Source of the DNA: a virus
DNA: 28,917 nt
Virus record (IMG/VR): IMGVR_UViG_3300046003_001495
Location: 1 to 28,917 of that record
Reading direction: 5' to 3' (one strand)
Shown here: positions 15,274-18,394 of the stretch, one piece after another
Numbering within the stretch: position 1 is the stretch's first letter
Layout of the letters: each line of letters starts with the position of its first letter
Made by a program: the position numbers and the translations under genes
Notes under the pieces: model-generated
What the model was told of the DNA's origin: nothing
Seen by the model: only the letters and a program-made list of their open reading frames with translations
Databases searched by the model: none

Positions 15274-15465
15274 ATGAAAACAAAACTATCACTTATCTTA
15301 TGGGCATTATCAGCCCTATTTATGTCATTTTGGGCAATCAAATTCGCAATGACTGGAGTTTTCTTTGGCAATTCCGAGTTGCTTACGTTTACACTATCCT
15401 TTTGTGCCTCGCTAACAAGTGCGGTGTGCGGAGCAGGTTTTATGCAGCAATGGCTTAAGAAATGA
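15274..15465 (+). CDS. Small two-helix membrane protein
   Basis: 63 residues. Two hydrophobic segments are visible, LSLILWALSALFMSFWAIKF and LLTFTLSFCASLTSAVCGAG, joined by a short loop, with a basic end (QQWLKK). It sits at the start of the operon that ends in lysis genes, so a holin-like or superinfection-exclusion role is possible; no family is recognised. The stop overlaps the next start as ATGA. Confidence 0.6.
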   Translation: MKTKLSLILWALSALFMSFWAIKFAMTGVFFGNSELLTFTLSFCASLTSAVCGAGFMQQWLKK

Positions 15466-15878
15466 AACTATTTTACAAACCTACCAAGTTAACCTGCGAA
15501 TTTATTGTACCTGATATCGCGAAAAGCGAAGGAGTGCAGAAAGTCATAGGCTTTTCAAGAGGTTGGCATCACTGGAATAGCATTAGGTTAGGCATCCGCA
15601 AAGAAGACACTTACATTGTGCTATATTTCTATGCGTATATTAATGGAAAAAGAGTTATCCAGCGTTTAGGCAGATTCGAGATTGGCGAAAAGGTATCGGT
15701 TGCGTTGCACTGGGGATATTACATTGAATGTAAAGCTAACGATGGTTATGCTTTTAGAGTAGCACCAAAGCGTTCATTTCCGATTGGTTACCAACTTAAC
15801 AGTTACGCAGAGAAAGATGGTGTAGAGGGCATAGAAGTGCCTATGGATATTAAGATAATGAATTTAAGGATTTATTAA
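15462..15878 (+). CDS. Hypothetical protein preceding the cassette array
   Basis: 138 residues, not recognised. Strand-rich and aromatic (FSRGWHHWNSIRLGIRKED, YIVLYFYAYINGKRVIQRL, ALHWGYYIECKANDGYAFRV). Its TAA stop (15876-15878) lies inside the xxxxAAC core of the first attC-like site, so any cassette exchange occurs directly behind this gene. Probably a resident phage gene, because no GTT-type core matching its 3' end was found upstream. Confidence 0.6.
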   Translation: MKLFYKPTKLTCEFIVPDIAKSEGVQKVIGFSRGWHHWNSIRLGIRKEDTYIVLYFYAYINGKRVIQRLGRFEIGEKVSVALHWGYYIECKANDGYAFRVAPKRSFPIGYQLNSYAEKDGVEGIEVPMDIKIMNLRIY

Positions 15879-16005
15879 CGGTTGGCAGCTAAACGAGGTG
15901 GCTGATTAATACCTCGAAACTTAATACGAAGAACAATGGATAATTTAAACAACAAACTTTCAGACGAAGCACAAAGCCAGCCATCTTGTTTAGGTGCTGT
16001 TAGCA
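15873..16005 (+). repeat. attC-like recombination site A
   Basis: Imperfect long palindrome. Left core TATTAAC (15873-15879), left arm through 15904, loop of 73 bases, right arm 15978-15998 and right core GTTAGCA (15999-16005). Arms pair as CTAAACGAGGTGGCTG against CAGCCATCTTGTTTAG with two mismatches, plus GGCAGC against GGTGCTG near the cores. Overall length 133 bases is in the usual attC range. The cores do not match each other, as expected when the left one belongs to the upstream cassette. The start codon of the next ORF (15936) is in the loop. Confidence 0.75.
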
Positions 16006-16226
16006 GTAGGTTTTTCTTTTTTGTATATTCCTATTGGTGTGAAAATCGAGAAGGAAAAGGAAACTTGTGTATAAAATCAAAAGGTTTCCCAAAGCAAGAA
16101 TATGTAAAAGCTAAAGCTATTGAGCAAGTTTCTAATAGATACGATGAGCCTATGTGGAAAATATCGGCTGTAATTGAAAGTTGGATTGAAATGTCAAAAG
16201 AGGATTATGCAGAATGGTTGTCATAA
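15936..16226 (+). CDS. Cassette-encoded hypothetical protein 1
   Basis: 96 residues. The first 22 residues (MDNLNNKLSDEAQSQPSCLG then AV) are encoded by attC-like site A; the remaining part belongs to the cassette that begins at the GTT core (15999). The cassette part (VYSYWCENREGKGNLCIKSK, then AEWLS at the end) has aromatic residues, two cysteines and a helix (EYVKAKAIEQVSNRY), perhaps a small alpha/beta fold. No family is recognised. It ends 10 bases before the core of site B. It has no promoter of its own and is co-oriented with the operon, as cassette genes normally are. Confidence 0.6.
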   Translation: MDNLNNKLSDEAQSQPSCLGAVSSRFFFFVYSYWCENREGKGNLCIKSKGFPKQEYVKAKAIEQVSNRYDEPMWKISAVIESWIEMSKEDYAEWLS

Positions 16227-16359
16227 ACTTACTGCTAACGTGATGCAGCTACCAGAAGGGCGGGATTTAGAAAACGAAATTATCAATTTAAAAATAAAAT
16301 TATGTTAGAAAACGAAAATATCAATGAACTACAGAACCCCGCCTTTTTGGTAGGTGCTG
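16000..16359 (+). mobile_element. Integron-like gene cassette 1 (360 bp)
   Basis: Boundaries are placed at the G/TT crossovers of sites A and B. The cassette starts GTTAGCAGTAGG (15999-) and its far end carries CTTACTGCTAAC (…16239): GTTAGCA and TGCTAAC are exact reverse complements and the match extends to 10 bases (GTTAGCAGTA). In integrons the left core of a cassette's attC is complementary to the first bases of that same cassette, exactly what is seen. It contains one short promoterless ORF in the array direction. No integrase gene is visible in the window. Confidence 0.7.
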
Positions 16360-16365
16360 TTATGT
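16233..16365 (+). repeat. attC-like recombination site B
   Basis: Left core TGCTAAC (16233-16239), left arm GTGATGCAGCTACCAGAAGGGCGGG split over 16240-16264, loop with the next start codon (16302), right arm 16337-16358 (CCCCGCCTTTTTGG then TAGGTGCT), right core GTTATGT (16359-16365). TACCAGAAGGGCGGG pairs with CCCGCCTTTTTGGTA with two mismatches. It has the same length as site A (133 bases) and the same TAGGTGCTGTTA right end, although the arm sequences differ, which is how attC sites behave: structure and cores conserved, arms variable. Confidence 0.75.
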
Positions 16366-16523
16366 GCAGTGTTTGTGAAGGAACTGGAACATTGACTGAA
16401 CCCGATTGCTGTTGGAATGTAGATTATATTCAAAAATACGGAAGCTGTTGCGGAAACCCTAACCCTATTCAAGTTCAATGCAAGTATTGTCATGGCGAAG
16501 GGTTCTTTAAACATTGCACATAA
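16302..16523 (+). CDS. Cassette-encoded zinc-finger protein with two CxxCxGxG motifs
   Basis: 73 residues. The first 20 (MLENENINELQNPAFLVGAV) are encoded by attC-like site B; the GTT core is codon 20. The cassette-encoded rest has CSVCEGTGTL and CKYCHGEGFF, two DnaJ-type CxxCxGxG zinc-binding motifs, with CCWN and SCCGNPNP between them. A small zinc-binding protein, perhaps a chaperone adaptor or RNA/DNA-binding factor; function unknown. Its stop codon (16521-16523) lies within the core at the end of cassette 2. Confidence 0.65.
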   Translation: MLENENINELQNPAFLVGAVMCSVCEGTGTLTEPDCCWNVDYIQKYGSCCGNPNPIQVQCKYCHGEGFFKHCT

Positions 16524-16524
16524 C
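16360..16524 (+). mobile_element. Integron-like gene cassette 2 (visible part)
   Basis: Starts at the crossover of site B with GTTATGTGCAGTG (16359-). Its far end is CATTGCACATAAC (16512-16524), the reverse complement at 12 of 13 positions, including a perfect 7-base core pair (GTTATGT / ACATAAC). The remainder of its attC (site C) is degenerate: left-arm-like TAACATATATGCGCTAC follows at 16525, and a right-end-like GTGCGTGTTATGG occurs at 16679-16691, but the arms pair poorly. The right boundary is therefore left open. Confidence 0.6.
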
Positions 16525-16532
16525 TAACATAT

Positions 16533-16667
16533 ATGCGCTACATTTACACGCTTATACTACAACCTATCCGTTTCTTAATAATAATAATGTGGTTGCTATT
16601 CAATAGTTGCCACGTAAGTAAAGAAGTAAAAATGATTCGTAAAATGACTAAATGTAATTATATATGA
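16533..16667 (+). CDS. Small lipoprotein (44 residues), possible outer-membrane spanin or exclusion factor
   Basis: Short ORF starting MRYIYTLILQPIRFLIIIMW and then LLFNSC. The hydrophobic signal ends in a lipobox (LFNS followed by Cys 26), after which only 18 mostly polar residues remain (HVSKEVKMIRKMTKCNYI). It lies upstream of the endolysin gene and close behind the cassette array. Tiny phage lipoproteins of this shape include Rz1-type o-spanins and superinfection-exclusion proteins; which one cannot be told. It may instead be a chance ORF in the remnant of site C, although the lipobox makes that less likely. Confidence 0.5.
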   Translation: MRYIYTLILQPIRFLIIIMWLLFNSCHVSKEVKMIRKMTKCNYI

Positions 16668-16735: not shown

Positions 16736-16984
16736 ATGAAACAAACAGCAATGCAGATTTTATTTGACAGAAATCAAGAAATAATTGATAAACTTGAATT
16801 TACATCAAACCCTTTTCAAGTAGAGTATCGAAAAGCATTAGTTAGTGTTAATGATGACATCGCAACCGAACTGTTAGCAATGGAAAAAAAGCAGATAATT
16901 GATACTTATAGAAAAGGCTTTATGTCAGATGATATTAAATTAGCAGATGATTACTACAACGAAAATTATAACAAAACAATATGA
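16736..16984 (+). CDS. Phage hypothetical protein (TAMQxL...YYNETY-type)
   Basis: 82 residues from ATG 16736 (MKQTAMQILFDRNQEIIDKL). A longer form from 16664 is open but adds a Cys-rich stretch from the degenerate site C and is not preferred. Helical, ending with ELLAMEKKQIIDTYRKGF and ADDYYNENYNKTI. This pattern (TAM..L, lL..EK.qI..ay..g, YYn.tY) is a recurrent unknown family in Bacteroidota phages and conjugative elements, in my recollection. Function is unknown. Its stop overlaps the endolysin start as ATGA. Confidence 0.65.
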   Translation: MKQTAMQILFDRNQEIIDKLEFTSNPFQVEYRKALVSVNDDIATELLAMEKKQIIDTYRKGFMSDDIKLADDYYNENYNKTI

Positions 16985-17403
16985 AACCAAAAGATGAAAG
17001 TAAGCCATACGAATCGAGATTAATTGAGGATTTACACCCAACACTTTCTAATGCGTACAAGAAAGCAGAAGCGCAATTCAATGCAACACACAACGATGTT
17101 CACGTGATCATAGTTTGCACTTACAGAAACAATGCAATGCAGGAAGTTTATTATCATAAGCGACCGAAAATCACGCAAGCCAGAGCCTCGCAGTCACCCC
17201 ATAACCACTACCCTTCCAGAGCCTTTGACATAGCATTTGTAAAGGTTGGTAAACGTGAGTTAGACTACTCTGCAAAGCATTTCAAAGAGTTTTGGGAATT
17301 GCTGCAAACACATAGCAACAAGCTAACTTGGGGTGGTAATTTTAAATCGTTCAAGGATTTACCCCACTACGAATTAACTAACTGGAAAATGACAATCGTA
17401 TGA
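16981..17403 (+). CDS. Endolysin, M15-family peptidase (L-alanyl-D-glutamate type)
   Basis: 140 residues. Zinc and catalytic motifs of the VanY/M15 family: SPHNHYPSRAFDIAF (His 74 or 76 and Asp 83) and DLPHYEL (His 129 with Glu 131). The fold is complete without a cell-wall-binding domain, as is usual for endolysins of phages of Gram-negative hosts. It would cleave peptidoglycan cross-bridge peptides at lysis. No signal peptide is present, so it depends on a holin, candidates for which are at 18406 and 19337-19712. Confidence 0.88.
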   Translation: MKPKDESKPYESRLIEDLHPTLSNAYKKAEAQFNATHNDVHVIIVCTYRNNAMQEVYYHKRPKITQARASQSPHNHYPSRAFDIAFVKVGKRELDYSAKHFKEFWELLQTHSNKLTWGGNFKSFKDLPHYELTNWKMTIV

Positions 17404-17585
17404 CACGCAACACACGCTACACTAATGGCACAGAGGTTATAACTTTTGTTAAGATTGATTTTATTGCAATCGGTGGTCGCAAGATTGACCACGTTTACTT
17501 TAGGCGAAAAGATAAACACGATTTGATAATGCCTTTGGTGGAATGGAATATTAAGGGTAAATTTGAATGGGAAATAATTAATTGA
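17400..17585 (+). CDS. Small hypothetical protein between endolysin and PAPS-reductase-like gene
   Basis: 61 residues, overlapping the endolysin stop as ATGA and ending in TGATG with the next gene. Strand-rich and basic (ITFVKIDFIAIGGRKIDHVY, then MPLVEWNIKGKFEWEI). Not recognised. It is probably co-translated with its neighbours. Confidence 0.55.
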   Translation: MTRNTRYTNGTEVITFVKIDFIAIGGRKIDHVYFRRKDKHDLIMPLVEWNIKGKFEWEIIN

Positions 17586-18394
17586 TGAAAACAATAAATA
17601 GTTTAAGCGGAGGTAAAACCTCAAGTTATTTAGCAGCCCATTACCCTGCTGATTATAATCTATTTGCTCTTGTTAAAATTGATGATGTAAAATGCGCCCC
17701 AAAAGACAAAGCACTTGTAAAATTTATATCCGATAAAATAGGAGAAGAATTTATTGCAACTGCTGAATCTGATATGACACTAAAAGCAGTTATTGACTTG
17801 GAGCAAATGATAGGTCAAGAAATTATTTGGGTACACGGACTATCATTTGAGAAAATGATGAAAAAGAAAAGTGCAATGCCAAATATGGAGTGGAGGTTTT
17901 GCACAACTGAAATGAAGATGAGACCTATATTTGATTGGTGGTTTAAAAACATAAATGAAAAGTGTAAAATGGGCATAGGTTTCAGATACGATGAATTGGA
18001 ACGAGCAAGCAGATTGTCAACTACATTTAAGGGCATTATAGGAAAGTCAAAAAATGGCAATAGAAATAAGTGGGGTGAGTTAGAATGGAGGGAGGGTTAT
18101 TTTCCATTGATTGAAAATAAAGTTACTCATTTGCAAGTAAAAAAATGGGCTGATTCAACAAACTTAATTTTTCCATCTGATTCAAATTGCGTTGGTTGTT
18201 TTCATAAGCCATTACAACAATTGCGTAAAAATTGGGATTTAGAAACTGAAAAGATGCAATGGTTTTCAGACCAAGAAAAAAAGGCTAAATGGAAAAAAGA
18301 GGCTACCTTTGCACAAATAAAAACAATAGGTTTGCAACAAGACTTTAACTTTGGCACTGGAAGCGGTTGTCAAGCAGGTTTTTGCACTGATTAA
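17585..18394 (+). CDS. PAPS-reductase-like / N-type ATP pyrophosphatase (PP-loop) protein
   Basis: 269 residues from ATG 17585 (TGATG overlap). The N-terminal SLSGGKTSSYLA (about residues 6-17) is the SGGKxS PP-loop that binds and adenylates with ATP, as in CysH, DndC and related phage 'phosphoadenosine phosphosulfate reductase' proteins. Further Cys-containing motifs: WRFCTTEMK (about 100-108), DSNCVGCFHKP (about 202-212) and GSGCQAGFC at the very end; together they could hold an Fe-S cluster as in DndC or related enzymes. Substrate is unknown. Such genes in phages are often linked to modification of DNA or small molecules. It lies between lysis genes, so it is an insertion of a metabolic or modification gene. 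Confidence 0.8.
   Translation: MKTINSLSGGKTSSYLAAHYPADYNLFALVKIDDVKCAPKDKALVKFISDKIGEEFIATAESDMTLKAVIDLEQMIGQEIIWVHGLSFEKMMKKKSAMPNMEWRFCTTEMKMRPIFDWWFKNINEKCKMGIGFRYDELERASRLSTTFKGIIGKSKNGNRNKWGELEWREGYFPLIENKVTHLQVKKWADSTNLIFPSDSNCVGCFHKPLQQLRKNWDLETEKMQWFSDQEKKAKWKKEATFAQIKTIGLQQDFNFGTGSGCQAGFCTD

Follow-up and report, generated by a model that had tools for sequence, protein, structure and literature searches.

Two small genes in the lysis region of a phage are each preceded by a long imperfect palindrome, which raises the question of whether they are integron-type cassettes and what would move them. The window, that is, the whole stretch of 28,917 nucleotides analysed here, is a genome fragment (IMG/VR record IMGVR_UViG_3300046003_001495, positions 1-28,917) that carries terminase, portal, helicase, tape measure and tail sheath genes. 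The terminase was recognized via PHROGs; neither the Pfam profile PF03354, used as a terminase control, nor an Rfam scan gave a match in the window. Its gene content appears to be that of a Caudoviricetes phage, and its relatives point to a Bacteroidota host. The stop codon TAA of the 138-aa gene to the left of the array forms the first part of the constant left core, TTATTAA/C (a slash in a sequence marks the crossover point). We consider it very likely that the locus holds two tandem integron-type cassettes at an attI-like site of the phage, moved by a recombinase of the Bacteroidia host and with their genes reversed. The features are collected in table 1.

Table 1. Features of the array and of the phage genes around it, in window coordinates.
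Feature	Position	Strand	Evidence or remark
138-aa phage gene, no assigned family, left of array	15462..15878	+	kept in relatives; constant up to TTAAC, variable beyond
Site A, attC-like, cassette 1	15876..16002	- (folding strand +)	R1 E 4.7e-20, R2 E 7.6e-22
Cassette 1 as it would excise, between TAA/C crossovers; distal from attI	15879..16238	-	TAA/C breakpoints in relatives
Cassette 1 gene, 96 aa, no family	15936..16226	+	start codon inside site A
Body 1 start (GTTAGCA...), GTTAGCAGTAGGTTT	15999-16013	+	complementary to 16225-16239, pair I3, 93%
Body 1 end (...TGCTAAC), AAACTTACTGCTAAC	16225-16239	+	pair I3, 14/15 positions pair
Site B, attC-like, cassette 2	16236..16362	- (folding strand +)	R1 E 9.2e-23, R2 E 9.7e-23
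Cassette 2 as it would excise, between TAA/C crossovers; proximal to attI	16239..16523	-	same junction logic as cassette 1
Cassette 2 gene, 73 aa, CxxCxGxG repeats	16302..16523	+	start inside site B; stop TAA is the crossover core
Body 2 start (GTTATGT...), GTTATGTGCAGTGTTT	16359-16374	+	complementary to 16509-16524, pair I2, 94%
Body 2 end (...ACATAAC), AAACATTGCACATAAC	16509-16524	+	pair I2, 15/16 positions pair
attI-like site, TAGCGCATATATGTTAG/TT	16522..16540	-	same motif downstream of Bacteroidia recombinase gene
Small lipoprotein-like phage gene (Rz1-like by eye), right of array	16533..16667	+	directly after 138-aa gene in cassette-free relatives
M15 peptidase (endolysin-like) gene	16981..17403	+	anchor for fetching 60 relatives

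We built two attC covariance models for the present analysis, R1 from 35 sites, none of them in the window, and R2 from 36 sites of bacterial arrays only. Both matched the two window palindromes from end to end, and folding confirmed the long imperfect palindromes that an earlier note on this DNA had pointed out. When both strands of each site were folded as DNA, site A gave -15.2 on the plus against -9.6 on the minus strand and site B -17.7 against -12.7; in both, the bottom strand of the array, here the plus strand, is the more stable. This preference held for 50 of 52 short sites, the bottom strand folding better as in integrons. Pairing at inner stem positions 7-12 mostly exceeds 90% (lowest 84%), all four Watson-Crick types occur there, and RNAalifold found compensatory changes in 15 of 18 pairs of a viral-rich set and 16 of 23 pairs of a bacterial set. 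A G.G mismatch and an unpaired spacer of 5 versus 1 are also conserved. With this covariation and the asymmetry of spacer and mismatch, the sites are imperfect palindromes that conserve structure over sequence, like attC sites. The pattern of a left end, a variable middle and a right end was found in at least 120 viral stretches and in 16 in genome contigs, all of the latter Bacteroidota MAGs. At L050:2265-2500, an entire ORF (MKYLKILID...) lies within the palindrome loop and the body after it measures only about 30 nt.

The ends of each gene body pair with one another across the gene. The complementary cores lie exactly where the earlier note had put them and are longer than it stated, 15-16 nt with one mismatch each. 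In 39 of 65 bodies, taken from many contigs, the three variable positions of the core matched the body's own far end; when the 65 bodies were shuffled 2000 times, the mean was 4.9 and the highest value 15. Chance, which had been called very unlikely for the window's two matches, is excluded at the level of the population. In bodies of bacterial arrays, at least 8 of the first 9 positions matched the far end in 43 of 43. Across the cassette, the outer ends pair as far as position 15, and position 11 is kept as G opposite T. The window cores are GTTAGCA and GTTATGT, and the consensus GTTRRRY/RYYYAAC does not describe this family: 42 of 65 bodies have T as the fifth base, and the first core bases, GTTA[TG], misfit GTTRRRY in most.

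Site A encodes the first ~21 residues of the cassette 1 protein (MDNLNNKLSDEAQSQPSCLGAV) and site B the first ~21 residues of the cassette 2 protein, a leader that is probably translated. The cassette 2 protein resembles a DnaJ-type zinc finger weakly (DnaJ_CXXCXGXG, E 0.03) and DUF5351 (E 0.0017), both below cut-off. In a search of viral contigs, the match between each cassette protein and its relatives ended at residue 20-26, at the core, with unrelated sequence beyond; relatives of the cassette 1 protein align to the leader alone and then diverge at the core. Searches of deposited phages with the cassette 1 gene (tblastn) and one short site (blastn) gave no match. The coupling, the folding and the covariance matches bear out the proposal of two consecutive integron-type cassettes with structured recombination sites.

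The relatives reveal where the exchange takes place. Of 60 relatives of the M15 gene, 7 have nothing between the 138-aa and the lipoprotein-like genes and others carry different genes there; related phages thus vary exactly at the cores, as had been expected of cassettes, with different cassettes or none between constant flanks. On the left, relatives are constant up to ...TTATTAAC, and beyond it even the palindrome varies. On the right, the variation ends with xxxTAAC; the sequence after it is constant (TAACATATATGCGC or TACCTTATATGCGC) and contains no palindrome. In the window, the right junction of cassette 2 reads ACATAA/CTAACATATATGCGC. Because the constant flanks end and start at TAAC cores, the exchanged block extends from TAA/C to TAA/C. 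Contigs sharing ~195-204 nt up to the left core (L006/L116, L007/L008, L102/L142, L108/L119, L147/L158, L186/L215, L113/L124 and window/L061/L075) have different palindromes in every pair, and among 204 unique sites no pair of these left-sharing contigs had both the left body and the palindrome in common. Contigs L007 and L008 differ by a 686-bp insertion that is bounded exactly by TAA/C and holds two cassettes with their own coupled ends, the flanks matching at 100% (1810 nt) and 99.8% (462 nt). As far as the alignments can resolve them, the junctions fall at TAAC, which we read as TAA/C, equivalent to G/TT exchange with RYYYAA/C on the other strand.

Shared left ends with differing palindromes, a palindrome-free right junction and a right flank matching attI together argue for exchange at xxxTAA/C. 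They also indicate that the array reads on the minus strand, a cassette being, in plus-strand order, a palindrome and the gene after it. The earlier note had taken a cassette to be a gene and the palindrome after it, exchanged at G/TT of the right core; this polarity has to be reversed, as the breakpoints are at the left core. Some contigs have the same gene body with different palindromes (L008/L087, L112/L197, L116/L139 and L174/L187), which simple cassette exchange does not explain.

Other kinds of variation occur in and around this locus. Relatives L047, L053, L068 and L076 have a second attI-with-cassette locus downstream of the M15 gene, a position at which the window has a PAPS-reductase-like gene (17582-18394) whose edges are without TAAC/GTTA cores. 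In L066, another relative, the cassettes are replaced by an ORF (2090-2990) that looks by eye like an HNH/NUMOD homing endonuclease.

The attI of the window lies on the right of the array, at 16524, and the motif TAGCGnnTATAAnnnAG/TTA recurs at phage junctions. In bacteria, the core TATAAnnnAG/TTA follows the stop codon of a tyrosine recombinase gene by 68-102 nt in 19 of 27 loci, counting all loci drawn from random Bacteroidia genomes. Under the stricter limits applied in the control comparison (40-200 nt past the stop), it was found at 18 of 24 bacterial loci versus 1 of 15 viral Xer-type genes. The bacteria have the recombinase gene beside attI, and the phage has attI without the recombinase. 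No attI without cassettes turned up when the window's phage family was searched by exact match (0 matches); the cassette-free relatives are without the whole attI segment, which suggests that attI and cassettes may have arrived together.

The same sites are widespread in the Bacteroidia, R1 finding them in 108 of 149 sampled genomes. Genomes with the recombinase mostly have sites (79 of 84), compared with 29 of the 65 without it; canonical IntI was present in 1 of the 149. One contig of MAG-332 (L246/L247) carries six sites together with a 371-aa tyrosine recombinase; the junction closest to the recombinase gene, GAACATAAC/TAGTTTATACCCGCTAC, is similar to the right flank in phages. Five of the fetched arrays contain a full-length recombinase gene (L387, L388, L389, L391 and L397), and in all five the sites lie on the other strand. 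A more distant recombinase in L401 and L404 and a shorter one in L393 are on the same strand as the sites; judging from L401 and L404, the rule of array direction may not hold for every clade. Many Bacteroidia recombinase genes end ~100-250 nt from a contig end and point outward (G119:C19, G048:C132, G179:C21, G065:C3, G050:C16, G126:C51, G177:C239, G095:C14 and G051:C24), as if assemblies break at a repetitive array.

The recombinase consists of a SAM-like and a catalytic domain, with the catalytic residues R, H, R, H and Y invariant across nine proteins. Its catalytic part is closest by sequence to XerA-type structures (NF040815; PDB 5hxy, 4a8e); the Bacteroidia gene instead adjoins attI and an array, and its product adds an N-terminal domain. 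Residues 175-243 of VchIntIA align to residues 267-293 of the recombinase, a segment ~40 residues shorter, so that the IntI-specific insertion is missing. TIGR02249 matched the recombinase in two pieces and was over the cut-off in 0 of 12 genomes. The Bacteroidia enzyme is thus without the additional domain by which integron integrases are recognized (Messier and Roy 2001, as cited in PMC9668308) and which earlier work holds to be required for recombination in integrons. Most of these recombinases have an extra N-terminal domain of ~75-95 residues with invariant tryptophans. It matched DUF5710 in 7 of 20 (best 5e-6) and HARP weakly (0.007), a PDB search with it gave no match, and it is possibly DNA-binding.

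The phages themselves do not appear to carry this enzyme. No PF00589 recombinase was found in 26 phage records (the window fragment and 25 relatives), so that the window, with two attC-type sites, falls under the definition of a CALIN (at least two such sites and no integrase). As the window is a fragment, its genome may still encode an integrase in the missing part, although the 25 relatives have none either. Among 49 array-bearing viral records none has a full-length recombinase, and the Xer-type genes present in five of them do not encode the N-terminal domain. The earlier note had looked to the host for an IntI-type integrase: the Bacteroidia do have a tyrosine recombinase with attI and arrays, but it is not a canonical IntI. 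As the phages encode no such recombinase, we infer that the host's probably acts on their cassettes in trans.

Phage and bacterial cassettes differ in the direction of their genes. Viral cassette genes are oriented toward attI in 111 of 113 resolved cases, and 31 of 111, about a quarter, start inside their own site. In bacterial arrays, 37 of 38 resolved genes follow the array direction, and they do not start inside sites (111:2 versus 1:37 toward attI, Fisher p 1e-31). A smaller mixed set of bodies from genome contigs, some of them maybe prophage, had 5 toward attI and 7 in array sense. The split argues that the phage pool is not a plain copy of host cassettes. Among the 134 viral cassette proteins, 15 match N6/N4 DNA methylase, 4 C5 methylase, 3 Mom and 4 YopX, a cargo that fits anti-restriction.

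Could the phage simply have captured canonical integron cassettes, each a gene with a downstream attC, exchanged at the right GTT core by an IntI-type integrase? Core complementarity and folding would fit any integron, and recombination of phage attC clusters by IntI1 is on record (PMC9892861). Such a capture is nonetheless very improbable given that the breakpoints are at the left core and the right flank is an attI motif with no palindrome, that IntI was found in a single Bacteroidia genome against sites in 108, and that GTTA[TG] misfits GTTRRRY in most bodies. Dead remnants of host arrays, gained by homologous recombination and moved by no recombinase, would account for the 26 phage records without an integrase and for a family without an empty attI. 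We regard this as unlikely, because near-identical contigs differ by an exact two-cassette insertion, many cassettes occur at one junction and the viral gene orientation differs from that of host arrays, which were therefore not simply copied.

The start codons in the sites of 31 of 111 viral cassettes, and the palindromes that are sometimes swapped alone, could also point to palindromes that work as RNA or expression elements, either attenuators or 5' leaders providing start codons, and that ordinary homologous recombination shuffles between phages. This can hardly be the case: each core pairs with the gene's far end and not inside the palindrome, universally so in bacterial arrays, and in bacteria the same sites adjoin attI and a recombinase and contain no gene starts. 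Two further candidates were dropped, an IS200/IS605-like model because there is no link to a Y1 transposase and the cores couple across the gene, and pdif/Xer modules because the sites covary as long hairpins. Xer recombinases act on double-stranded dif sites.

The reading we prefer, tandem cassettes at a phage attI served by a host recombinase, predicts the following cycle. The host tyrosine recombinase, whose gene in Bacteroidia directly precedes its own attI and cassette array, would act in trans on the bottom strand in its folded form (the plus strand in our case) and cut at xxxTAA/C (G/TT on the other strand), and cassettes would move in and out of attI. Phage transcription from the left would read each site as a 5' leader and then the gene. 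Since the phage genes are reversed relative to the site, the operon transcript would pass through the site, which can supply a start codon and a leader peptide.

Much of this is shared with chromosomal integrons (IntI, attI and attC; class 1, Vibrio): a recombinase, an adjacent attI, tandem cassettes, imperfect-palindrome sites, outer cores coupling within the cassette, a bottom-strand folding bias and G/TT exchange. The integrase gene points to attI in the Treponema-type integron (PMC3607928), as in the Bacteroidia system. The differences are a recombinase without the IntI-specific insertion and with an extra N-terminal domain, the core GTTA[TG]nn instead of GTTRRRY, outer pairing to about 15 bp, an unpaired spacer of 5 versus 1 nt and, in phages, reversed genes. 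The Bacteroidia and phage system works like an integron but has neither the integrase-specific domain nor GTTRRRY cores. A survey with IntegronFinder 2.0 reported a single complete integron in Bacteroidetes, in Salinibacter ruber (PMC9024848).

Phage attC clusters without an integrase (CALIN) are known, as is their recombination by IntI1, with Polaribacter phage P12002L among the examples (Qi 2023, PMC9892861). The suggestion that cassette arrays in Bacteroidota phages were undescribed does not hold, since the P12002L clusters are in print, although R2 did not recognize their sites (best E 0.06). These sites (L256, KR136259; 30008-30056, 38035-38090 and 38879-38936, minus strand) have a similar spacer asymmetry and belong to a sequence family different from that of the window sites. 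Phage CALIN share with our arrays structured sites, cassettes without an integrase and DNA methyltransferase cargo; an attI motif, a counterpart in host arrays and systematic gene reversal are not among the features reported in the accessible part of PMC9892861. The integron-like class, its integrase type and the phage inversion were undescribed in the literature searched, whose scope excluded bioRxiv and most subscription journals, so that absence there is not proof.

On balance we lean towards a wider interpretation, in which the Bacteroidia hold a widespread, overlooked class of integrons whose Xer-like integrase lacks the IntI insertion and has its own N-terminal domain. Phages with an integrase-free attI, a flipped cassette pool and the site as 5' leader would rely on the integrase of their host to exchange small genes, those for anti-restriction among them. 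With sites in 108 of 149 Bacteroidia genomes and the recombinase in over half, a major gene-capture system may have been missed because its integrase is without the diagnostic domain. The need for the IntI insertion in folded-site recombination becomes testable. On the phage side, nature would provide a clean example of host machinery put to use by a virus for exchanging small genes, DNA methyltransferases among them, and also one of cassette genes reversed relative to their site.
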